Of a stretch of DNA of 40,079 nt, positions 25,518 through 39,928 are shown piece after piece. The notes below the pieces were generated by a model. It made no database searches. It was not told the DNA's origin and saw nothing but the letters and a program-made list of their open reading frames with translations. The stretch is from an uncultured Bacteroidales bacterium. GTDB taxonomy: Bacteria; Bacteroidota; Bacteroidia; Bacteroidales; UBA932. The position numbers and the translations under genes were made by a program. The stretch spans positions 1 to 40,079 of the forward strand of contig CASFSL010000025.1 of NCBI GenBank assembly GCA_949297365.1. Reading direction: 5' to 3'. The stretch's first letter is position 1. Each line of letters starts with the position of its first letter.

Positions 25518-25970
25518 TCAGAATAATGTAGGTTCAGTGTCGTGCTCCTTGCTCAGCAGCAGCGACATCCTCTTTTCAAAGTCCTGAAAGAGCGGGAAGT
25601 ATACATTCAATATAGACAGATAGATATTCCCGGATATGTCATCGTCGTACAGATGTGATGTCTGATTACGGTCAATTATTGACTCCATCCAGCGGGAATC
25701 CGAGATCAGCCCTATCTCCAGCGCACGCCTGAAAGCGTCACGGGAACCTTTTATGTCGGAATATCCCTGGTACTCAGCATAGTCTTTCATGACTTTCCAA
25801 GCCAGTTCATGTGTGTATTCAAACCGTTGGATGAGTCCTTCCTTGATAAGGTCGTCCACATCCTCGTCCCATTCCATCTGCCTTTGGACGATGTCCACAG
25901 CCTGGGACAACCGTCCCAAAGCCTTACGGTAATTATTGAATCTCTGTTCCCAGCGGATATCCTCACTCAT
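25518..25970 (-). CDS. HEPN-domain toxin, HI0074-type nucleotidyltransferase partner
   Basis: The 150-residue all-helical protein belongs to the HI0074-like HEPN proteins paired with MNTs. It contains the HEPN ribonuclease signature R-x4-H followed by x-Y, in IIDRNQTSHLYDDD, so both the predicted catalytic residues and the tyrosine modified in type VII systems are present. The helical core includes IQRFEYTHELAWKVMKDY. The start is ATG 25970 (MSEDIRWEQRF), 25 bases from a -7 box; the longer in-frame start at 26039 lies upstream of that promoter. The MNT antitoxin gene follows directly. Confidence 0.87.
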   Translation of the reverse strand: MSEDIRWEQRFNNYRKALGRLSQAVDIVQRQMEWDEDVDDLIKEGLIQRFEYTHELAWKVMKDYAEYQGYSDIKGSRDAFRRALEIGLISDSRWMESIIDRNQTSHLYDDDISGNIYLSILNVYFPLFQDFEKRMSLLLSKEHDTEPTLF

Positions 25971-25995
25971 AATTTGAAGTTTTGTAAACCGAGTA

Positions 25996-26032
25996 CAAAA
26001 ATAGAGAAATCCGGCGATTTCTACTATTTTTG
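25996..26032. promoter_or_regulatory. Inverted repeat carrying two divergent -7 boxes upstream of the HEPN/MNT operon
   Basis: The minus-strand box TATTTTTG (25996-26003) and an identical plus-strand box (26025-26032) are the ends of one imperfect palindrome. The left arm CAAAAATAGAGAAATC (25996-26011) matches the reverse complement of 26016-26032 except for one inserted base. The minus box drives the toxin-antitoxin operon; the plus box has no obvious gene (only a 10-codon frame at 26053). It may be an operator. Confidence 0.6.
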
Positions 26033-26220
26033 TCATCAAAAGAACTGACTCATGAAGTATCCTGTTTCCACGATGCAGGCGTAGTTATAGAGTCGTGGGA
26101 TGCTTTGTCCGCATTCCTGTTGTGCTCCATGATGTCGTCTTGATAATAGAAGAACGCGTCAGAAGAACTGCAGGGGAAGCATCCGCGGGATATTTTTACG
26201 GAAAAAGCGAAACGGATTGT

Positions 26221-28353: not shown

Positions 28354-28367
28354 CGGCTGTGGATTCG

Positions 28368-29930
28368 ATGCCGATGCTGCCGGAACAGTTTATAGCACAG
28401 CTTACACTCTCCCTCGGTCCCGAAAGAGCGGGGGAGGTGTTTTCTTATATACAGGACTCGCAGCCTTCTGTGGCCGTAAGGGCCAATCCTTTCAAGGTCT
28501 CCGATGCTGAGTCTCTTTCTTTTTTGCCCATTGATGCTGAGCGCAGTACATATTCGCAGTGGGGACGCTTTCTGACCTCCCGTCCGGAATTTGCCCTGGA
28601 TCCGCTCTTTCATGCCGGCACATATTACGTCCAGGAGGCTTCTTCCATGTATCTCGAGAGGATTTTCCCGATTATGAGGCAGATGAGGGAAGACCGTCCT
28701 TCCGGAGCATTTGCCGTGCTGGACTTGTGTGCTGCTCCTGGCGGCAAGACCACGCATCTGCTGTCCATGCTGCGGGATATTCCCACATCGTTTCTGGTGA
28801 GCAACGAAGTCATCCGTTCCCGGGCATCCGTGCTGTGTGAGAACGTCTCCAAGTGGGGGGCCGCCAATGTCATTGTCACCAACAATGATCCGGTGGATTT
28901 TGCAGATATTCCGGGATGTTTCGATGTGATTGTGGCCGATGTGCCGTGCTCCGGGGAAGGGATGTTCCGCAAGGACCCGGAGTCGGTGGCCCAGTGGTCT
29001 GAGGACAATGTGCGGCTGTGTGCGGCCCGTCAGCGCCGAATCCTCTCGGATGTGCTTCCGGCCCTGCGCCCGGGCGGTCTCTTGGTGTATTCGACCTGCA
29101 CCTTCAACCACTATGAGGATGAGGACAATGTCGCCTGGTTAGCCTCCGAATACGGCTTTGAGGTGTTGGAACAGAGGCATTTCTATCCCGGGGATGATAT
29201 GGCCGGGGAGGGATTCTTCTTCTCGCTTCTCCGTAAGGAAGGGGGCAGTGATGTGCCGGCTCGGGACAATGTGACCAGAGGCCGTGGCGGGAAGTCCGGC
29301 GGCAGTGCGCTTTATCGTCCCTTCGGCTCATTGGACTGGGTGAGGGACGGCTTTACCGTATACCGCAAGGGGGCGGTACTCAAGGCTTTTCCGGAGTCGG
29401 TTGCCGATGCGGTGCAGGCGTTCGAGGCCTCATCCGGACTCCGTGTCATGATGTCCGGCTCGGTCGTGGCGGAGGTCAAGGACGGCAGTGCAAGTGGCAG
29501 AAATCTGTATGGTGCTATTGTCGGCAACAAATTTTCCAGTCGTAAAGGATCCGGAGATCTTGACGCTGGCTCATATGTCTCTGGGGCATTCAGAAGTCAA
29601 TCATCCCGGCCACGATCCAGGTCAGCAAAAGGCTCTGATGCTGTAATATTGCCGCAGTATTCCCTGATACAGAGCGAAGTCTATCGGCGCGGCAGTCTGC
29701 CCGAAGTTACGGTACCGCTGGAGACTGCCCTGGCATACCTTCGCCGCGACCCCGTCGTCCTGCACGACGCACCCGCCGGCTACGTGGTGCTCACCTATCT
29801 CGTGGAGCATCCCCTCCGGCAGCCTGATGGAACACTCTCAATGCCAGCCGTTCCATTCGGTCTGGTCAAGAACCTCGGCTCCCGTTGCAACAACCTCCTT
29901 CCCCCCTCCATCGCCCTCCGCAAACGCTGA
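28368..29930 (+). CDS. RsmF-like rRNA (cytosine-C5)-methyltransferase
   Basis: The roughly 520-residue NOL1/NOP2/Sun-family enzyme methylates C5 of cytosine in rRNA. It contains the SAM motif DLCAAPGGKTTHLL, motif IV with ADVPCSGEGMF and motif VI with the nucleophile in VYSTCTFNHYEDEDNVAWL; both catalytic cysteines are intact. The N-terminal NusB-like domain of RsmB is absent. A C-terminal part of about 230 residues (from about 290) carries a PUA-like end, as in RsmF/YebU. The Ser/Arg/Gly-rich stretch near 405-435 looks like a linker. GTG 28359 and ATG 28374 are alternative starts. Confidence 0.9.
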   Translation: MPMLPEQFIAQLTLSLGPERAGEVFSYIQDSQPSVAVRANPFKVSDAESLSFLPIDAERSTYSQWGRFLTSRPEFALDPLFHAGTYYVQEASSMYLERIFPIMRQMREDRPSGAFAVLDLCAAPGGKTTHLLSMLRDIPTSFLVSNEVIRSRASVLCENVSKWGAANVIVTNNDPVDFADIPGCFDVIVADVPCSGEGMFRKDPESVAQWSEDNVRLCAARQRRILSDVLPALRPGGLLVYSTCTFNHYEDEDNVAWLASEYGFEVLEQRHFYPGDDMAGEGFFFSLLRKEGGSDVPARDNVTRGRGGKSGGSALYRPFGSLDWVRDGFTVYRKGAVLKAFPESVADAVQAFEASSGLRVMMSGSVVAEVKDGSASGRNLYGAIVGNKFSSRKGSGDLDAGSYVSGAFRSQSSRPRSRSAKGSDAVILPQYSLIQSEVYRRGSLPEVTVPLETALAYLRRDPVVLHDAPAGYVVLTYLVEHPLRQPDGTLSMPAVPFGLVKNLGSRCNNLLPPSIALRKR

Positions 29931-30146: not shown

Positions 30147-30284
30147 ATGATAATCAGTGCTGATTTGAGCATCCGTGCCCCGCACTTCCTGAATTATTTG
30201 GACAGGATGTCGGCGAATGAGCATGGCAGGATTACGTTGGGTACATGGTTGAGGGATTTCATGTTAAGTATAAAGCACCTCTGA
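30147..30284 (+). pseudogene. Truncated gene fragment at the island boundary
   Basis: A 45-codon frame encodes a protein-like segment containing PHFLNYLDRMSANEHGRITL and GTWLRDFML. It then runs a few codons into the 3' end of the converging primase-helicase gene and stops. The sequence has the look of a conserved enzyme fragment rather than random translation, but I cannot name the family. Its end coincides with the stop codon of the island gene (30264), so it is probably what remains of a host gene cut by insertion. ATG 30147 may not be a real start. Confidence 0.4.
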
Positions 30285-33116
30285 GATATTCTCTGCCAAT
30301 GTCGAGTCATAAATACGTATGGCATTGTTTTCATCAGTATTGTAACCAAGATAGTTGATACTGCCATACCATATCAAAGATTTGTCGATGATTGCAACAT
30401 CAATAACCAATGAATCATTAATCTTAATACTCACTCCTGTTCCTTTTAACTGTTCTTCTTTTCCCGAATTACTTTTGATTAAAGTGACAACTTCAATCCC
30501 ATGCACGGACAAATCTTTCAGTATATCAAGCACAGACGAGTGCTTGGCAAACCAAAGTTTTGTTGTGGAAATGACAACCGAACGCTTTGCCTGACGCAAA
30601 TCCTTGAAAAAATCATTTTGGTATGTATGTCCATTAAAAATAACTCCTTGACTTTCGTTGAACAAGTTCATTGGTGCGTTTGACTTAATCTGATAACCGA
30701 CAGACGCATATCCTCTCAATCTACGCTTGTACATGACATCGCACATCGGTACACGGATATCGATATAATCGTAAATTCGGACTTCTCTTTTGCCCGGATA
30801 TTCCCGGTGCAACCGCCCGGCATATTGCGCTATGATACCTTTCCAAGATATTGGCAAAGCCAAGAATAAGGTGTCCAACCGGGGATAGTCAAAACCTTCA
30901 CCCACATATTTCCCTGTAGCAACTATGACGAGCTGCTCCGAGGATGGTATATTTTGCAGGTATTTCATTTTCTGACGTTTCCCTTTTGCCGATTCAGAAC
31001 CGATAAGGGTTACTACGTGTTCGCAATGTGGTGCCAATGCGCTTGCTAATGTTTCGACATGGGCAGTGAGGTTGGTCAGTACAATGGGGGAACGTCCTTC
31101 TTTCAAAGCCACGCATACATCCTTTATTATAAGTCCGTTCCTATTTTTATCTTCAGCCATTTTCTGAACCATCCGGACATAAGTGGACTTTTCATCCGTT
31201 AATTCTCTGTAAGAAGTAAAGCGTGGAACAAGTAGACGTGTGAATGTCTGGGATGCCATTTGAGTTTTTGCGTCTGCCGAATAGCGGATAGGACCGCATT
31301 GCATAAAAATAATTGGCTGATGTCCGTCTTTCCGGATTGCAGTGGCTGTCAACCCATAGACATAGCAGGCATTGGCATACTTCAATATCCGTTCAAAATT
31401 TACCGCAGAAACATGATGGCATTCGTCCACAATCAGCATTCCGTAATCCCGGACGAAAGGTTTTACCCCACTGTCCTCCAAGCAGGATTGCATCAAGGCT
31501 ATATCTATTTTCCCATGCAGTGAATTTCCTTTGGAATCCAATGTGCCGAACGGCGAAAAGGCTTTCCTGCGACCACGTTTCTTTGGAAGGTCGTCCTCCG
31601 TAAAGTCTATTTGCAGGAATTCTTCCAAACGGGATTTCCATTGGTCCAACAAAGCTTTGGTGTGTACAAGTATCAGCGTGTTCACTTTCCGTTCAGCAAT
31701 TAAACCGATAGCCGTGACCGTCTTGCCAAATGCTGTAGTAGCATTCAATATTCCGTTGCTATGGGCTGTTAAGTTAGCTACGGCCGCTTTCTGTTCTTCA
31801 CGGAGTTCCCCTTTAAACTCTACGGCTATATTCTCTCCATGATTGGTCTTATCCTCTATGCTGTAAGAGACTTGATTATCTTCCAAAAGGGCAATGAGCG
31901 CATCTTCACATCCACGAGGCAGGGCGATATAATCTTCTTCCATATCGGCACACGAGATAATGCGGGGAATATTGTAAGTGGACAGTCGCATACCTTGTCT
32001 GGCATAAAACTCCGGATTCTTGAACGATGCTATTCGTTTCAGATGGTTCACGGCTTTTGCCGAAAATCCCTGCAAAGGAATGTACAGCATATTGGAGCGT
32101 ATAAGGACAAAATTGGCAGGGAAATCAATATGGGTAATCTTTTGAGGTATGGGCGTTTCCCATGGTTTTGATTCACTGGTAGTGGACAACTTACCCAATT
32201 CCGAAGCCGTTTCGTGTCTTGTCAATATTGCGTCAACTGTAGCCTCAGATATCCGTTTTATTTTAAGCAAATAACTCCATTGGTATTCGTATGCTATAAA
32301 GTCTTCATCCACAAACACGCTGTTCCCCTCTTTGCGGGCTTTGCCTTGCAATGGCAATGCAACCAGGTTCCCGAATCCGCCATCGGGCAACCTGTCTTGG
32401 TTAGGGAAGAAACGGTCGTATGATTTGAAAGTCATCCTTCCGTATCTTTCCGTCGCTTCCGTCAATATCGCGTTTCCAAGTCTTCGTGCCTTGGATGCAG
32501 GTAACGGCTGTTCAAAGAATATCCAAACATGTGCGCCGTTCCCGGAACGGGAGCGTTCAATGTAGCAAGGAGCCTCCCAATCTTTGCAGACCCCGACATA
32601 TGCCAACACATCTTTCATATATCCACATTCGCAGGACTTGTCATCAAAATCCGCGCACAGGAAGTTACACGTATTGTCGGTAAGAATGGCATAAGCACCG
32701 ATTACATCCTGCCCGTCCGAACTCTTCCCTTCAAGATGTCGGTATATATCCTCATACTCCAATGGTTTGAACGACCTGTTGGGGCATTCCGTGCATTTAT
32801 ATTTTTTCTTGTCACATAACCGCCTGTCCCATTCGTTCCGACATACAGGCTGATATCCGGACTTTCCGCTTGTCCGGCTGTACCATCTCCGCGCGAAGAT
32901 ATCTTCACGTCCCTTGAACAGATTGCGGAACACATCCACTTTTTCTTCCAAAGACAAATGTTGCTTCATGGCAGGCAATGTAGAAGAAGCACCTTTGCTG
33001 CTTAGCAAAGACTGTAGCCTGTCTACCTCCTTATGAAGATATTCATTTTCCATAAGAAGTTTGTTGTATGCCGCCAACAGTTCTTGGTATGTAGGCTGTT
33101 TTTCCAAATTGTTCAA
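30264..33116 (-). CDS. Primase-helicase conflict protein (AEP primase, SF2 helicase, PLD-like)
   Basis: The 950-residue protein opens with a coiled coil (to about 45) and a cysteine cluster (C92-C111, including CTECPNRSF). A primase-polymerase domain of the archaeo-eukaryotic type follows, with DFDD at 156-159 and SGNGAHVW at 191-198. An SF2 helicase of XPB/DEAD-like type spans about 430-795, with Walker A TAFGKT (461-466), DECHH (564-568), GLTATA, and motif VI QYAGRLHR (764-771). The last 120 residues resemble a PLD domain, but the HxK of HKD is replaced. The order matches proteins annotated as TOTE conflict-system primase-helicases. Its start overlaps the stop of the upstream ATPase gene by four bases. 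Confidence 0.85.
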   Translation of the reverse strand: MNNLEKQPTYQELLAAYNKLLMENEYLHKEVDRLQSLLSSKGASSTLPAMKQHLSLEEKVDVFRNLFKGREDIFARRWYSRTSGKSGYQPVCRNEWDRRLCDKKKYKCTECPNRSFKPLEYEDIYRHLEGKSSDGQDVIGAYAILTDNTCNFLCADFDDKSCECGYMKDVLAYVGVCKDWEAPCYIERSRSGNGAHVWIFFEQPLPASKARRLGNAILTEATERYGRMTFKSYDRFFPNQDRLPDGGFGNLVALPLQGKARKEGNSVFVDEDFIAYEYQWSYLLKIKRISEATVDAILTRHETASELGKLSTTSESKPWETPIPQKITHIDFPANFVLIRSNMLYIPLQGFSAKAVNHLKRIASFKNPEFYARQGMRLSTYNIPRIISCADMEEDYIALPRGCEDALIALLEDNQVSYSIEDKTNHGENIAVEFKGELREEQKAAVANLTAHSNGILNATTAFGKTVTAIGLIAERKVNTLILVHTKALLDQWKSRLEEFLQIDFTEDDLPKKRGRRKAFSPFGTLDSKGNSLHGKIDIALMQSCLEDSGVKPFVRDYGMLIVDECHHVSAVNFERILKYANACYVYGLTATAIRKDGHQPIIFMQCGPIRYSADAKTQMASQTFTRLLVPRFTSYRELTDEKSTYVRMVQKMAEDKNRNGLIIKDVCVALKEGRSPIVLTNLTAHVETLASALAPHCEHVVTLIGSESAKGKRQKMKYLQNIPSSEQLVIVATGKYVGEGFDYPRLDTLFLALPISWKGIIAQYAGRLHREYPGKREVRIYDYIDIRVPMCDVMYKRRLRGYASVGYQIKSNAPMNLFNESQGVIFNGHTYQNDFFKDLRQAKRSVVISTTKLWFAKHSSVLDILKDLSVHGIEVVTLIKSNSGKEEQLKGTGVSIKINDSLVIDVAIIDKSLIWYGSINYLGYNTDENNAIRIYDSTLAENISEVLYT

Positions 33117-34483
33117 AGTAGCGGTGTCATATATAAAGGCAAATATACAATGCCGTTCTCCACTTTCACATCCTTGTCGTGAAGCACATAGGGCGTGGAT
33201 AACTGGGAACTATACTTGGCGATGCACTTTCTCAATGAGTTCAACGTGTAACGTTGTCCGGACTTCACTTCTATCGGTGAGATATTATGCCTGCTGGTCG
33301 TTACGGGTTTAGTTATCAGGAAATCAATCTCCATACGGTCGTCTGCCGATGTGCGGGAACTGTTGCTGAAGAAATACAGTTTGTGCCCTGCCGCCCGAAG
33401 CATTTGCGCTACGATATTTTCAACCAACATTCCCTCGTTCACTTCCAGCTTGTCGAACATCAGTTTCCGGTACAGGTTGGCACTGACAATTCCCCGTTCA
33501 TCGAAGGCATGGTTGATGAGCAGTCCGGTATCGCCCATATAGCATTTTAGCGTGGTACGTTCTTCATTCAGTTTCAGCCCGATACTTGGCTCAGTCGAAT
33601 TATAGCAGCAGTTGATGATTTTGGCATCGCTCAGCCAAAAGAAAGCCTGCGAATAATCACGCATCCTGGCCTCATTTTGCAAGGCAGACAAGACAAACTT
33701 TTTTTCGTGTTTCTGTAATTGTCCCGGTATTTCCTCAAAGATGGCGGCAACTTTAGTCTCTTGATTGTCAGCGTATTTGTGAATATCATTACGGTAAAGA
33801 GCCAATATGTCGCGCTTCACTTTATCCACCTTTTCAAAATCCCGTGTCTCCACATATTTGGCGACAGCCTGTGGCATTCCTCCGACAATCAGGTATTGCC
33901 GGAAATAATCCATTGCCCGGCGGTGGAAAGTCTCCATCGGAAGGCGTTTTTCAAACCGCATCCGGATGTAAGGCATCAGTATCTCGTCTCCCATAGCCCA
34001 CAGAAATTCCTCAAAATCCATCGGAAACATTTCGATGGCATGCTCTTCGGAAGGCAGCATGATGTCCTTGACATTCTTCTTAATCGAAATCAGTGACCCC
34101 GTCTCAATGTAATCATAACGTCGGTCTGCCACCAAATGCTTGATGGCAGCACGGGCACGTGGACAAAACTGCACTTCATCGAATATGACTAAAGATCGGG
34201 CTTCCTCGTCTTTCGTCTGACGAGGGGTGAGTTTCCGCCTGAAGTAAAGCTCCAGATTCATGAAAAGCATGTCAAGGTCATCCAAATAAAGGTTGAAAAA
34301 CTCCATCACCTGCGGATTTACCTTGCTGAAGTCCACCAGAATATAAGACGTGTATTCCTTACGTGCGAATTCCTCCACGATATAGCTCTTTCCTATACGT
34401 CTGGCTCCTTCTATCAAAAGAGCAGTGTCACCCTTATGTTTCTTCTTCCATTCCAAGAGTTTATCGTATATCTTCCTTCTCAT
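33113..34483 (-). CDS. AAA ATPase with DUF4143 domain
   Basis: The 456-residue protein has an N-terminal P-loop domain (AAA_14 type) with Walker A EGARRIGKS (25-33), Walker B SLVIFDEVQFCPRA, and an ETGSLISIKKN sensor segment. This is followed by the C-terminal DUF4143 nuclease-like region, with LVENIVAQMLRAAG, MEIDFLITKP and ISPIEVKSG. These last residues (E, D, E-x-K) resemble a PD-(D/E)xK site. Such proteins are abundant in Bacteroidota and poorly understood. It is the first gene of the operon and overlaps the primase-helicase start by four bases, so the two are made together. Low GC and codon use differ from the core genes. Confidence 0.85.
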   Translation of the reverse strand: MRRKIYDKLLEWKKKHKGDTALLIEGARRIGKSYIVEEFARKEYTSYILVDFSKVNPQVMEFFNLYLDDLDMLFMNLELYFRRKLTPRQTKDEEARSLVIFDEVQFCPRARAAIKHLVADRRYDYIETGSLISIKKNVKDIMLPSEEHAIEMFPMDFEEFLWAMGDEILMPYIRMRFEKRLPMETFHRRAMDYFRQYLIVGGMPQAVAKYVETRDFEKVDKVKRDILALYRNDIHKYADNQETKVAAIFEEIPGQLQKHEKKFVLSALQNEARMRDYSQAFFWLSDAKIINCCYNSTEPSIGLKLNEERTTLKCYMGDTGLLINHAFDERGIVSANLYRKLMFDKLEVNEGMLVENIVAQMLRAAGHKLYFFSNSSRTSADDRMEIDFLITKPVTTSRHNISPIEVKSGQRYTLNSLRKCIAKYSSQLSTPYVLHDKDVKVENGIVYLPLYMTPLL

Positions 34484-34485
34484 AA

Positions 34486-34529
34486 TTCACGTATTCGGTG
34501 TTATTGTCCAGTTAGTATTTCACGTATTC
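34486..34529. promoter_or_regulatory. Two TTCACGTATTC direct repeats in the leader of the ATPase operon
   Basis: Identical 11-base repeats occur at 34486-34496 and 34519-34529, exactly 33 bases apart, about three helical turns. They lie between the -7 box (34546-34553) and the start codon (34483), so a protein bound there could block transcript elongation or translation. The repeat nearest the gene ends two bases from the ATG. Confidence 0.5.
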
Positions 34530-34545
34530 AAGATTATCTCACTTG

Positions 34546-34553
34546 CAAAAATA
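34546..34553 (-). promoter_or_regulatory. -7 promoter box of the ATPase/primase-helicase operon
   Basis: The minus strand reads TATTTTTG. The predicted transcript has a leader of about 55 bases that contains both 11-base repeats. Confidence 0.6.
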
Positions 34554-34588
34554 CACTTTTTCTTGGATTTGGAAGAAATTCGATGAAA

Positions 34589-35994: not shown

Positions 35995-36865
35995 GAAGTT
36001 GTTTAAATTTTATTCAAAAATAATTTTATGGCAGCGATATGCATCATGGCTTCGTGCGTGTCCGCCCTGTATTCATAGTCAATGGTCAGCCTCCTGAAGT
36101 TCTCAAACCATGAGAAAGTGCGCTCGACAATCCATCTTTTGGGCAAGGGGACAAATGTGTCCTTCCGTTTGTCAGACCTGAGTACGATATCCAGTTCGCA
36201 ATGTAGCAGTTTCATGAGCGTGTTCCTGACAGCCTCGCCCCTGTAACCTCCGTCCGCCAGAATCCGTTTCAGCCTCGGGAATTTGTATCTCATGGATTCG
36301 AACACCTCTTCCGCCCCGACGCTGTCATGTACGTTCGCAGGATGGGCTCTCACCGACATAGGAAGCCCCAGAGTGTCTACCACTATGTGCTCCTTCCTTC
36401 CCTTTATCTTTTTGTTCCCATCTATCCCCCTTTGACCGTCAGTATGGTGGGAGGTCCTGACACTCCTTGAGTCGATGATTCCCAAGCCGGGACTCTCGAC
36501 CCTGCCCGAAAGACGTCGCACAATGCCGCGGAGGGTGTCGAAGATTTCTTCCAGCAAGCCCTTGTTCTTCCACTTGTTGAAGTAATAATATACTGTCTGC
36601 CACGGAGCGAAATCCGAGGGGTGCATTCTCCACTGCACGCCGGTCTTTACTATGTACAGAATGCCGTCAAATATAGAACGCAGCGAATATTTTCTGAATC
36701 TTTCTTTGGGGTCTAACATATTTTTTATAACTTGCCACTGTTTATCAGTCAGGTTGGTTGGGTATTTACACATAACTTTAATGTCTTGGTAAACATAAAG
36801 TTACGAAAAATATTCCAATCAACCTACTGATTCATAATTAATTATAAATAAATTTAAACGGCTTC
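35995..36865 (-). mobile_element. IS5-family insertion sequence, apparently intact
   Basis: The inverted ends GAAGTTGTTTAAATTT (35995-36010) and, reversed, GAAGCCGTTTAAATTT (36865-36850) match at 14 of 16 positions. The 871-base element is flanked by a three-base TTA duplication (35992-35994 and 36866-36868), typical of IS5. The left end overlaps the transposase stop codon. It has inserted next to a decayed element and a transposase remnant. Confidence 0.82.
36003..36773 (-). CDS. IS5-family transposase
   Basis: The 256-residue DDE transposase has an N-terminal helical domain beginning YPTNLTDKQWQVIKNML, the segment RSIFDGILYIVKTGVQWRMHP, and the catalytic aspartates in GIIDSRSVRTSHH and ILADGGYRG. 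The glutamate is in RWIVERTFSWFENFRRL. It is full length with no internal stop, so the element may be active. The same family includes many single-gene elements of about 870 bases. Its low GC matches the accessory region rather than the core genes. Confidence 0.93.
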   Translation of the reverse strand: MCKYPTNLTDKQWQVIKNMLDPKERFRKYSLRSIFDGILYIVKTGVQWRMHPSDFAPWQTVYYYFNKWKNKGLLEEIFDTLRGIVRRLSGRVESPGLGIIDSRSVRTSHHTDGQRGIDGNKKIKGRKEHIVVDTLGLPMSVRAHPANVHDSVGAEEVFESMRYKFPRLKRILADGGYRGEAVRNTLMKLLHCELDIVLRSDKRKDTFVPLPKRWIVERTFSWFENFRRLTIDYEYRADTHEAMMHIAAIKLFLNKI

Positions 36866-37161: not shown

Positions 37162-38733
37162 ATGACAAATTTTGAAATCAAGGCCCTCATCGAAGGTGCC
37201 TATGCTCAGACCCCTACTCTTCCAGGGTTCTGGCTCAAGTATGACGAGTTTCGCGAGAAGTTCAACGAACTCATTGCTTCCCGTAGCGACATCCCCATTG
37301 ATGTCGAAAAAGTTATCTCGGAGTTATATCCGGGTTCTTCCTTCATGGACCAGTATCAGCTGCAAGGCTCGGAAGATGTTTTCCGCGCTTTTCGGATTGC
37401 TCCTAATAAGTTGGTCATCCAGAGAGAACTGAAAAAAAAGATTGAAGCGATCTTACGCGAGGCCTCTGGTGATTCAGATGGTTGGAAGAACTTCGCCGTG
37501 ATTGGAGCTAAGGGGCTCAAGCCAGAGATTCTTGCGATGGGCTTTATTGGCATCCGACAGGCAGTGGAATGTTTGTTCCGCGGTCGTTTTGAATTTCGTT
37601 CAGGAAAGCCGACCAAGCACGAAGCGCCTGTGCTTATCAGAGATAAGAAAGAATTGAGTACACCATCGGATGCCACGTCTACTTTCTCTGGTGTGAAGCA
37701 AGAACGCGTAAGAAAAAACCCGAAACAGGGTTCTTTTATTGGGGATGCCATTGATGCCTTCGCTTATTTCCCTCGCCCCAAGAACTCAATCACCTATGGC
37801 TGGGATGCAGCAATCAACGAATTGGCAACAAACCTCGCCCTTGAGGAAAGGTGGTACTATTCTGAAGATGACAAGCAAAAGAAACCCATCCTCAAGAATT
37901 ATCTAAGCTATACGTTTGAGCGCCTCCAATTTGAGGACGCCGAAGAAACACGTAAAGCCGCCGAGGAGAATCGAGATGCCGTCCTGAAGATACTCGTTAA
38001 TGAAAAGCATGCACTGTTCAATACAGGACTGGTCAACAACATTTATGAGCCCATCTATGCTTTCTTCAAGAAGAACGACGGATCGAATCCAGTTGTATCG
38101 CAGCCCTGGATATTCATCGCGTTCGGAACTGCAAACAGCTACTACCAGAATATTATAACTGATTTCCCCTATCGCCCCAAGAGGGCCCAGTATTTCACGG
38201 ACTCAAGTGATCTCTTCTACGACACGAATGCTGCCATTCCAACGCTCAACTGGGAGCATTTCATCAAGGACAACATAGAGCGGCTACCTCTTGGCTTCGT
38301 GAAAAAGGGCGCACCTGAAGGTTATCCGTTCTGTGATAATCCTGATTCTCTGTCCCGGCCCCAGCGCCAGGCATATTTCAAGAAGATGGCTGATGACATT
38401 TTCGAGGATGATGACTGGATGCAGTTCTTGACCACAAAGTTCAAGAATGCCTTAAATATCACACTCAGCCGTGTTGCTTGGAACTATAAGACAGCAATTC
38501 CTGTGTATTATGTTGAAAAACATCAGCTCTCATTGCTGCTTCCACTGGCACTTGAGAAAAAGGATGTCATTGACGTCGCTCTTGTGGTCGAGCATAAAGT
38601 CAACAAGGAGAAAAAAATCAACAACTACGTTGGTCGGACGATTTTCACCTTGCAGATGGCATATTCGAACGCTCGCTTGATTACACGTCCAGACAGCGAT
38701 TGGCTTATGGCGGATATGAATCCGGGCAAGTAA
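37162..38733 (+). CDS. DUF3825 protein with N-terminal LOTUS-like segment
   Basis: The 523-residue soluble protein has a C-terminal DUF3825 domain (about 210-520). Recognisable segments are LALEERWYYSEDD, PILKNYLSYTFERLQFE, LFNTGLVNNIYEPIYAFF and the closing TIFTLQMAYSNARLITRPDSDWL-like strand-helix pattern. Residues about 88-145 (DGWKNFAVIGAKGLKPEI, GFIGIRQAVECLF) resemble an OST-HTH/LOTUS fold, an RNA-binding winged helix. The biochemical function of DUF3825 is unknown. The gene has lower GC than the core, follows a promoter within a transposon-scarred region, and is immediately upstream of a WYL regulator, a common layout in phage-defence islands. The RNA-related role is inference. Confidence 0.8.
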   Translation: MTNFEIKALIEGAYAQTPTLPGFWLKYDEFREKFNELIASRSDIPIDVEKVISELYPGSSFMDQYQLQGSEDVFRAFRIAPNKLVIQRELKKKIEAILREASGDSDGWKNFAVIGAKGLKPEILAMGFIGIRQAVECLFRGRFEFRSGKPTKHEAPVLIRDKKELSTPSDATSTFSGVKQERVRKNPKQGSFIGDAIDAFAYFPRPKNSITYGWDAAINELATNLALEERWYYSEDDKQKKPILKNYLSYTFERLQFEDAEETRKAAEENRDAVLKILVNEKHALFNTGLVNNIYEPIYAFFKKNDGSNPVVSQPWIFIAFGTANSYYQNIITDFPYRPKRAQYFTDSSDLFYDTNAAIPTLNWEHFIKDNIERLPLGFVKKGAPEGYPFCDNPDSLSRPQRQAYFKKMADDIFEDDDWMQFLTTKFKNALNITLSRVAWNYKTAIPVYYVEKHQLSLLLPLALEKKDVIDVALVVEHKVNKEKKINNYVGRTIFTLQMAYSNARLITRPDSDWLMADMNPGK

Positions 38734-38750
38734 ATCCAGTTGAATACATG

Positions 38751-38780
38751 AGAGCCTCGTCAGGAATGACGGGGCTCTTT
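38751..38780 (+). terminator. Terminator hairpin of the DUF3825 gene
   Basis: AGAGCCTCGTCA (38751-38762) pairs with TGACGGGGCTCT (38767-38778, one G-U) around GGAA, followed by only a few T's. Those T's are also the first bases of the next palindrome (38778-38800). Confidence 0.7.
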
Positions 38781-38800
38781 GCGAAGATACGTTTCGCAAA
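38778..38800. promoter_or_regulatory. Palindrome over the WYL gene promoter, likely operator
   Basis: TTTGCGAA (38778-38785) and TTCGCAAA (38793-38800) are a perfect inverted repeat with a 7-base spacer. It covers the region where the -33 element of the promoter at 38808 should lie, so a bound regulator would block the WYL gene; autoregulation by the WYL protein is the simplest idea. Confidence 0.55.
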
Positions 38801-38807
38801 ATATCCG

Positions 38808-38815
38808 TATCTTTG
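38808..38815 (+). promoter_or_regulatory. -7 promoter box of the WYL regulator gene
   Basis: TATCTTTG lies 24 bases before ATG 38840 and eight bases after the end of a perfect palindrome. Confidence 0.7.
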
Positions 38816-38839
38816 TCTCCGTAACCAATTAGAACAAGT

Positions 38840-39928
38840 ATGCCAGCAAACAAAAACGCCGTCGTAAGATATATTATTCTGGACAGGATGCTGTCGGATC
38901 AGCACCATTACTACACCCGTACTCAGTTGTTGAACTCAGTGAACGATTCTCTGAAAGGCATTGACGAAGCCCTGCAAGTGAGCAAGCGAACGATAGAAAT
39001 GGACTTGAGGGATATGGAGGATATTTTCCAGATTGACCTTGATGAGAGCAAGATTATCAACGGTAAGAAAGTAATCCGGTATGCCGACCAGACGAGATCC
39101 ATTTTCTCAAAGCCTCTATCGGACGATGAGAAAATGCTTCTTAAAGAAGTGTTAAGCACGCTTGGGCAGTTCTCTGGTCTTGATAATTTCATATGGCTGG
39201 ATGACCTGAAAACAAAACTGGGAAACCAACTATCTTTCGGAGGGAGCGAGTTTGACGCCGGGAATGGCGTTCCGCAGAGAAAAGTGATTAGTTTCAGTTC
39301 AAACGAATTCCTTCAGAATAAGGAATACTTGGGCTGGTTCTTCTCTGCCATAACAAACAAGAAAGTCGTTTCCATCTCATACCGGAAGTTTGATGCCGAG
39401 AGTGCGCAGGAAATCATCGCCTACCCCTACATGCTTAAGCAATATAGGGATAGATGGTATCTGCTATGTACCCCTACTTGCGACAAAACACTACCTTACA
39501 ACTCTCATTTCATTGCCAATATCCCACTGGACAGGATTGAGGCCTATGAGGAAGTTCAAAACATTCCTTATGTTGAGTGTCAGGTTGACATCGACGAACT
39601 CTTCGATGACATCGTGGGAGTGACATATTACTGGGACAAACCCGTTGAACACGTTGTGTTCGCCGTTCACAAGTCCTCCGCCAACTATATCCGTACAAAA
39701 CCAATTCATCCATATCAGGCTGAATTGTCGAAAGACAACCAAGCGGAACTACGACTGAAACACCCCCTGTTGAAGGATTTCGCATTCTTCTCCCTGGATT
39801 GCAAATTGAACTACGAACTATTGTCGTTGTTCAGGAGTTATGGCCCCAATCTGGTTGTTCTCTCCCCAGAAAAGTTAAGGGATGAAATGAAAGAATGCGT
39901 CAAGCGACAGTTGGAGTTATACTCTTAG
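38840..39928 (+). CDS. WYL-domain transcriptional regulator
   Basis: The 362-residue protein has an N-terminal winged-helix DNA-binding domain (about 1-75, with the recognition region VSKRTIEMDLRDMEDIF) and a WYL domain (about 170-250) containing the literal WYL in QYRDRWYLLCTP. A C-terminal WCX-like region (about 265-360) follows. WYL proteins sense nucleic acids or nucleotides and often keep defence operons silent until infection. It has its own promoter with a palindrome over it and is followed by another complex promoter for a gene leaving the window. The DUF3825 gene lies 106 bases upstream in the same orientation. Confidence 0.92.
   Translation: MPANKNAVVRYIILDRMLSDQHHYYTRTQLLNSVNDSLKGIDEALQVSKRTIEMDLRDMEDIFQIDLDESKIINGKKVIRYADQTRSIFSKPLSDDEKMLLKEVLSTLGQFSGLDNFIWLDDLKTKLGNQLSFGGSEFDAGNGVPQRKVISFSSNEFLQNKEYLGWFFSAITNKKVVSISYRKFDAESAQEIIAYPYMLKQYRDRWYLLCTPTCDKTLPYNSHFIANIPLDRIEAYEEVQNIPYVECQVDIDELFDDIVGVTYYWDKPVEHVVFAVHKSSANYIRTKPIHPYQAELSKDNQAELRLKHPLLKDFAFFSLDCKLNYELLSLFRSYGPNLVVLSPEKLRDEMKECVKRQLELYS

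Follow-up and report, generated by a model that had tools for sequence, protein, structure and literature searches.

Both halves of the gene pair described here are already listed, separately, as conflict or defence candidates, one as TOTE in Pfam and RefSeq and the other as PDC-S01 in PADLOC. The TOTE conflict system (Pfam PF22548; RefSeq "TOTE conflict system archaeo-eukaryotic primase domain-containing protein") shares with our window (i.e., the whole 40,079-nucleotide stretch of DNA from an uncultured Bacteroidales bacterium that was analysed) a primase fused to an SF2 helicase; the Bacteroidota members studied here differ in their pseudo-PLD tail and in their partners, which are often DUF4143, DUF234 or AlbA_2 proteins. 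Our searches of the open-access literature returned no publication naming TOTE. PDC-S01 (AAA_14-DUF4143) is listed as a single-gene candidate, whereas the window ATPase, which matches this PADLOC model over its full length (E 9e-113), is operonic with TOTE. Excerpts of PMC12988326 describe PDC-S01 and PDC-S27 as ATPases fused to PD-(D/E)XK, rank PDC-S01 fourth in frequency among prokaryotic defences and state that most such candidates await experimental validation. According to an excerpt of PMC13356809, no other individual locus is as frequent in rumen genomes as PDC-S01. PDC-S27 (ATPase_2-DUF234) follows the same architecture plan and fills the same slot before TOTE at other loci, but its ATPase family differs from that of the window, which holds no PDC-S27. 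The window primase domain also matches models of CRISPR-associated primase-polymerases, namely PADLOC PrimPol (E 3e-78) and NF040561, the latter at 102 bits and thus under the NCBIfam cut-off of 200 bits. For the DUF4143-TOTE pair, we found no description in the open-access literature, where some of our searches were broad, and the excerpts of PMC5862659 and PMC12839542 contain nothing on it; DUF4143 itself appears in one paper, as a listed name. Here, we find that DUF4143 is one among several exchangeable TOTE partners, and that a phased, mostly private repeat array before the ATPase gene is a new element.

The gene pair and its surroundings

The features of the locus are as follows.

30264..33116, minus strand: TOTE-type primase-helicase gene, 950 aa (AEP-TOTE primase, SF2 helicase and predicted PLD-fold tail without catalytic HxK)
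33113..34483, minus strand: AAA_14-DUF4143 ATPase gene, PDC-S01 family, 456 aa (PD-(D/E)XK-like E355, E385, D387 and IEVK)
33113..33116, minus strand: TTGA, four-base overlap of the two frames, from ORF coordinates
30267..30734, minus strand: C-terminal region of the TOTE protein, residues 795-950 (PLD fold in the AlphaFold model, degenerate catalytic motif in the alignment)
30263..34581, minus strand: unit of DNA homology to seven named loci, sharply bounded and made up of the leader, the two genes and the stop codon
34962-35738, minus strand: IS256-variant transposase, split over two frames (profile match)
36003-36773: IS5-family transposase frame, 256 aa (profile match)

The two coupled frames lie where the initial annotation placed them, and they overlap by four bases. 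Start codons as called are TTG for the 950-codon TOTE frame and ATG for the 456-codon ATPase frame. The TTG is a predicted start, and the overlap may not be the true start arrangement: a close relative (L166) has an in-frame ATG 9 bases beyond the TTG position, so the genes are tightly spaced, yet their real starts may be arranged differently. This spacing suggests a promoter common to both genes. G+C is 41-46% over 30-35 kb versus 48-59% in the first 30 kb, apart from one block of 45% at 25-26 kb, which agrees with the lower G+C first noted for the pair relative to the core. The insertion sequences said to adjoin the pair are present on its right, as IS256-variant transposase pieces and an IS5-family transposase. 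The neighbouring host gene that had been called truncated is complete: copies of rsmF (28359-29930, left of the pair) from four same-genus genomes align through to the last base of the window gene, ruling out truncation.

DNA shared between the window and seven loci (L032-L035, L038, L061 and L098, in records named Bacteroides, Mediterranea, Caecibacteroides, Phocaeicola and uncultured Bacteroidales) consists of the leader and both genes and nothing more. Its borders fall one or two bases beyond the TOTE stop (30262 or 30263) and at 34569 or 34581. Between the window and L032-L034, the ATPase is 96-97% identical and the adjoining TOTE protein 87-88%, so the two genes differ in their rates of divergence.

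The proposal of a primase domain and a helicase in one protein was confirmed by HMM searches, in which the 950-residue protein (P0001) matched PF22548 AEP-TOTE at residues 58-296 (E 6e-96; 321 bits, above the Pfam cut-off of 27 bits) and a ResIII helicase at residues 437-594 (E 1e-21). The motifs DFD, FGK and DECH are each invariant across 74 aligned TOTE proteins, that of the window among them. The PLD-like end that had also been proposed holds as a fold and not as a catalytic end. While Pfam gave no match to a PLD domain in this protein at 0.001, an AlphaFold model of the C-terminal 156 residues (795-950; mean pLDDT 82, with residues 16-28 low) resembled the PLD fold of Salmonella Nuc (1byr; TM 0.63/0.65) in Foldseek, with Zucchini, TrmBL2 and FAM83 as other PLD-fold neighbours. 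TrmBL2 and FAM83 have a PLD fold but are not known to carry out PLD catalysis; the window tail differs from these in belonging to a helicase. The catalytic motif HxKx4Dx6G was found in 5 of 70 aligned tail-bearing proteins and is missing from the other 65, the window included, and D-x4-WYG[SND] is retained in 67 of the 70. These motif counts rule out an active PLD nuclease end, and the models point to a PLD fold whose catalytic motif is mostly gone.

The smaller gene encodes a DUF4143 ATPase, as first annotated: its 456-residue product (P0002) matches AAA_14 and DUF4143 in Pfam in addition to PDC-S01. The PD-(D/E)XK-like acidic residues E355, E385 and D387 are invariant in 15 aligned ATPase rows; IEVK is present in the window ATPase and lost from L042, L081 and L101. 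A model of the whole ATPase (mean pLDDT 86) had Apaf-1 and ORC/Cdc6 as its nearest chains, at weak TM values of 0.2-0.3, and no PD-(D/E)XK chain was among the 50 Foldseek matches listed for it. DUF4143 genes are abundant, with 2-35 matches per genome in 11 genomes.

Recurrence and exchange of TOTE partners

We assembled 81 TOTE loci, comprising the window and the best 80 of 306 relatives from one genome scan; most are from Bacteroidota, and eight records are named Clostridia, Clostridiales, Ruminococcaceae or Succinatimonas. Where the TOTE frame is broken (as in L037, L090, L098, L115, L118 and L119, among others), the locus was used as found. The gene upstream of TOTE was assigned to classes by protein search. 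DUF4143 lies directly before TOTE at 23 of these 81 loci, which rules out an adjacency confined to the window, disposes of the possibility that the large protein always occurs alone and bears out that ATPase and primase-helicase are paired recurrently in a conflict setting. Three of the paired loci are in Clostridia records (L100, L101 and L103), two of which, L101 and L103, are 99% alike. A DUF4143-TOTE pair is also present in Phocaeicola vulgatus ATCC 8482 (L039). An AlbA_2 and/or 95-residue HTH protein precedes TOTE at 17 of the 81, a DUF234 protein of the DUF234/PDC-S27 kind at 9, and the remaining 32 were classed as "other". The upstream gene was scanned for 18 of these 32 and gave AbiEii (L071, L075), HipA_C (L109), RhuM (L083), BRO-N (L062) and a weak AlbA_2 match (L052), together with ordinary genes (RuvB, LicD, a CLC channel, an oxidoreductase, UvrD-like, RmuC and GNAT). 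At one further locus in this class (L057), we noticed by eye a short stretch like the end of a DUF4143 gene just before TOTE, and this locus may have lost a former DUF4143 partner. By simple ORF calls around the best 80 of 306 relatives, a same-strand gene lies at most 60 bp upstream of TOTE at 49 of 80 loci and downstream at 7 of 70; TOTE is thus usually the final gene of its operon.

In a tree of the TOTE proteins of at least 850 residues (74 of the 81 loci), the DUF4143 label must have been gained or lost at least 7 times, and all labels together require 14 changes, counts that come from a quick tree in which 22 of 71 inner branches are weak. The DUF4143 partners themselves differ in their best-matching PADLOC PDC-S01 model. 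The TOTE genes of L040 and L091 share 89.4% DNA identity and lie behind different DUF4143 subfamilies; the same is true of L049 and L050 (92.6% DNA identity), where the L049 ATPase is in two frames. In both pairs, the DNA match begins at or near the TOTE start.

The pair is not obligatory. TOTE lies beside the ATPase in 1 of 26 close relatives of the window ATPase outside its genome, within about 1.5 kb of downstream DNA that was covered in 24 of the 26; the DUF4143 gene has no internal stop in 24 of the 25 relatives free of TOTE. Conversely, at L036 and L037 the homology to the window is confined to the TOTE part, and a stretch resembling the repeat-bearing leader directly precedes TOTE, an arrangement suggesting that these two close relatives lost the ATPase gene by deletion. 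The TOTE frame is open in L036 (950 aa) and broken in L037, and in another genome (G033, L115) both genes have decayed. The apparent deletion and the single TOTE among 26 ATPase relatives rule out an obligatory pair. Together with the exchangeable partners, they do not support a dedicated, obligatory two-gene system; the two genes are not jointly conserved, as members of such a defence system would be.

A phylum sample had PF22548 in 24 of 296 genomes (window genome counted). At 24 loci of this sample, all from outside the order of the window, nine query proteins detected no DUF4143 upstream of TOTE in at most about 1.3 kb of DNA, and much less than that at some loci; two of the sample's loci (L194, L207) had weak AlbA_2 matches there. 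No DUF4143 is annotated before TOTE in 13 plasmid regions, whose gene tables are incomplete. Upstream genes in these regions include TniQ (in two), HigB with an HTH protein, AbiEii, Xre/MbcA/ParS and inovirus Gp2, and in one region a recombinase lies upstream with a Tn3 transposase on the opposite side. Of 5426 E. coli genomes, 868 gave a match to an E. coli TOTE relative, and in 681 the match spans at least 80% of the gene; in two chromosomal regions of E. coli, genes for an HTH regulator, YfjI and inovirus Gp2 precede it.

Defence genes lie near several TOTE modules. In a PADLOC scan of ten hand-picked proteins from such neighbourhoods, 8 of 10 matched at 1e-5; these are examples without a matched control. 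DruE (L078), TmtA (L048) and IetA (L053) matches lie a few genes upstream of AlbA_2-HTH-TOTE modules, GajB-like and NERD helicase matches lie a few genes before another such module (L056), and a QatA gene precedes a DUF4143-TOTE pair (L042).

A phased repeat array before DUF4143 genes

Three direct repeat copies, identified by a period test, lie between the ATPase gene and the upstream border of the shared DNA.

34484..34497, minus strand: repeat copy 3, CGAATACGTGAATT, abutting the start codon
34515..34530, minus strand: repeat copy 2, TGAATACGTGAAATAC, 33 bp upstream of copy 3
34548..34563, minus strand: repeat copy 1, AGAAAAAGTGTATTTT, 33 bp upstream of copy 2 and more diverged

The copies begin at -80, -47 and -14 relative to the ATPase ATG (i.e., with a period of 33). 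Their three-copy score is 21/26, while other periods from 20 to 45 give at most 14 and 0 of 1000 shuffles reach 21. Copy 2 with its flank (20 bp, at most 3 mismatches) is unique in the window genome. The Bacteroidota -7 consensus is TAnnTTTG, and repeat copy 1 overlaps TATTTTTG, which we take to be a -7 element of this kind. Copies 2 and 3 are probably downstream of the promoter, so the array could act in the RNA leader.

To place the array in a wider context, we collected 86 DUF4143 frames with a profile from an alignment. Discarding near-copies left 71, of which 64 were at least 300 residues long with sufficient sequence upstream; this set includes one DUF234-type gene (L064). As controls we used 333 genes, all from L032-L111; the 64 DUF4143 genes come from those loci plus further genomes. 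At least three copies of a 14-mer (at most 2 mismatches, within 250 bp upstream) precede 33 of the 64 DUF4143 genes, versus 4 of 333 controls and 7 of 640 shuffles. We then scanned all lags from 8 to 70, testing the period on the very 64 genes in which it had first been seen. A lag of 32-34 bp was found before 35 of 64 DUF4143 genes versus 1 of 333 controls, and a lag of 22-23 bp before 7 of 64 versus 4 of 333; at the remaining lags, the means were 0.004 and 0.003, respectively. Neither lag was found in 22 of the 64 upstream regions. The control genes and shuffles rule out that the repeats are a chance product of A+T-rich DNA, and palindromic operators are ruled out because none of the 33 core 14-mers is palindromic. 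A -7 box, scored with this consensus, is present within the final 120 bp before 53 of 64 DUF4143 genes versus 113 of 333 controls. The 14-mer copy test detected no array in the window's own group (L032 has one copy), where it is visible in the period-specific test because the copies there are more diverged. Arrays also precede DUF4143 genes without an adjoining TOTE.

The array period is partly linked to protein subfamily. In the window's protein cluster (37 members), all 25 members scoring at least 20/26 have a best period of 32-34, and in a cluster of six that includes L050 and L091, the period is 23 in five; a cluster of 15 DUF4143 proteins showed no common period. The repeat cores are mostly private to each locus: among 1056 ordered pairs of the 33 array genes, the 14-mer of one locus recurred before the other in 27, and among 10989 pairs with control regions it recurred in 53. 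In 23 upstream regions from six genomes (four named Clostridia), among which L253 is the same gene as L100, a lag of 32 or 33 bp was found in 5, two of them in Phocaeicola vulgatus (L252, L256) and three in Clostridia genomes (L258, L265, L267). Our searches of the open-access literature, which were weak and in part too broad, returned no description of such a phased array.

Two other repeat patterns were seen. At L175 and L191, copies of the repeat in the DUF4143 promoter also occur downstream of the gene. By eye, the DUF234 genes before TOTE at L060, L063, L064, L068 and L104 have their own upstream direct repeat, approximately GAGTTTYRGCTAAAAC, with another spacing.

A possible mechanism and its alternatives

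The pair looks like an exchangeable bacterial defence cassette. We propose, as a reading with about an even chance of being right, a horizontally moved two-gene conflict cassette built of exchangeable modules, in which the ATPase holds the array and TOTE acts on foreign DNA. The first module would be an AAA+ ATPase with a PD-(D/E)XK-like domain and a helical middle region, which the fold matches to ORC and Apaf-1 lead us to take for a winged helix. An oligomer of this ATPase would sit on the phased array of its own promoter, one unit per approximately three helical turns, and would keep operon expression low. If the ATPase itself binds the array, a mostly private core and a period tending to vary with the protein family would be expected. 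The second module, TOTE, would open, prime or copy invading DNA, or block its replication, and the mostly non-catalytic PLD fold could serve in DNA binding or dimer formation. Infection or the entry of foreign DNA would relieve the hold of the ATPase and release both gene products, with TOTE being one exchangeable payload of an ATPase-controlled operon.

More tentatively, and at somewhat less than an even chance, we suggest that PDC-S01 ATPases each read a private address in their own promoter, i.e., a phased array of approximately 33 or 23 bp whose period is set by subfamily and whose core diverges between paralogues, and that TOTE is an exchangeable payload behind some of them. If true, a genome with up to 35 DUF4143 ATPases would run many insulated, self-addressed switches. 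The fixed-period, mostly locus-private array offers a testable handle on the role of PDC-S01 ATPases, and the exchangeable TOTE pairing suggests that conflict operons trade their regulator and effector parts at gene borders.

TOTE may instead be a passenger that tends to come to rest at the end of many mobile or conflict operons simply to be expressed; DUF4143 would then be a functionally unrelated neighbour, frequent because of its abundance. This explanation, which we consider possible though doubtful, is favoured by the many unrelated genes upstream of TOTE on plasmids (TniQ, HigB/HTH, recombinase, AbiEii, Gp2, Xre/MbcA/ParS), by the ordinary genes in that position at some of the best 80 of 306 relatives, by the apparent deletion of DUF4143 in L036 and L037, by the lack of TOTE near 25 of 26 relatives of the window ATPase, and by the match of partner-swapped loci from at or near the TOTE start. 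However, DUF4143 adjoins TOTE at 23 of the 81 loci (window plus best 80 of 306), even though a genome has only 2-35 DUF4143 matches; in two cases one DUF4143 occupies the place that another occupies beside a near-identical TOTE, and the plan of an ATPase with PD-(D/E)XK is common to the DUF234 partners, according to the excerpt of PMC12988326.

Two further explanations are much less probable than a conflict cassette or a passenger gene. The tight operon and the toxin-antitoxin genes among some neighbours would fit a toxin-antidote pair, in which one of the proteins, be it the nuclease-like ATPase or the primase-helicase, would do harm and be held in check by its partner. We consider this very unlikely, as TOTE stands alone in an open frame in L036 (950 aa) and DUF4143 stands alone at 25 of 26 loci and is free of internal stops at 24 of these. 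Least likely is a replication-initiator-like module, in which an ORC/Cdc6-like ATPase, iteron-like repeats and a primase-helicase would together make up a small origin, possibly left over from a former replicon. The proximity of the ATPase model to Apaf-1 and ORC/Cdc6 chains in Foldseek and the likeness of fixed-period direct repeats to iterons speak for it, but the model similarity is weak (TM 0.2-0.3), the repeats also precede DUF4143 genes without TOTE, the window contig has housekeeping genes such as rsmF, and the pair is in none of the 13 plasmid regions viewed.

Two other places in the window hold genes of related kinds. A nucleotidyltransferase substrate-binding-like gene (PF08780), presumably of HEPN type, lies at 25518-26039 on the minus strand, in or beside the low-G+C block (45%). 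Past the insertion sequences, at 37162-39928 on the plus strand, a DUF3825 gene is followed by a gene for a WYL-domain regulator, and these two possibly form a second conflict-type operon.
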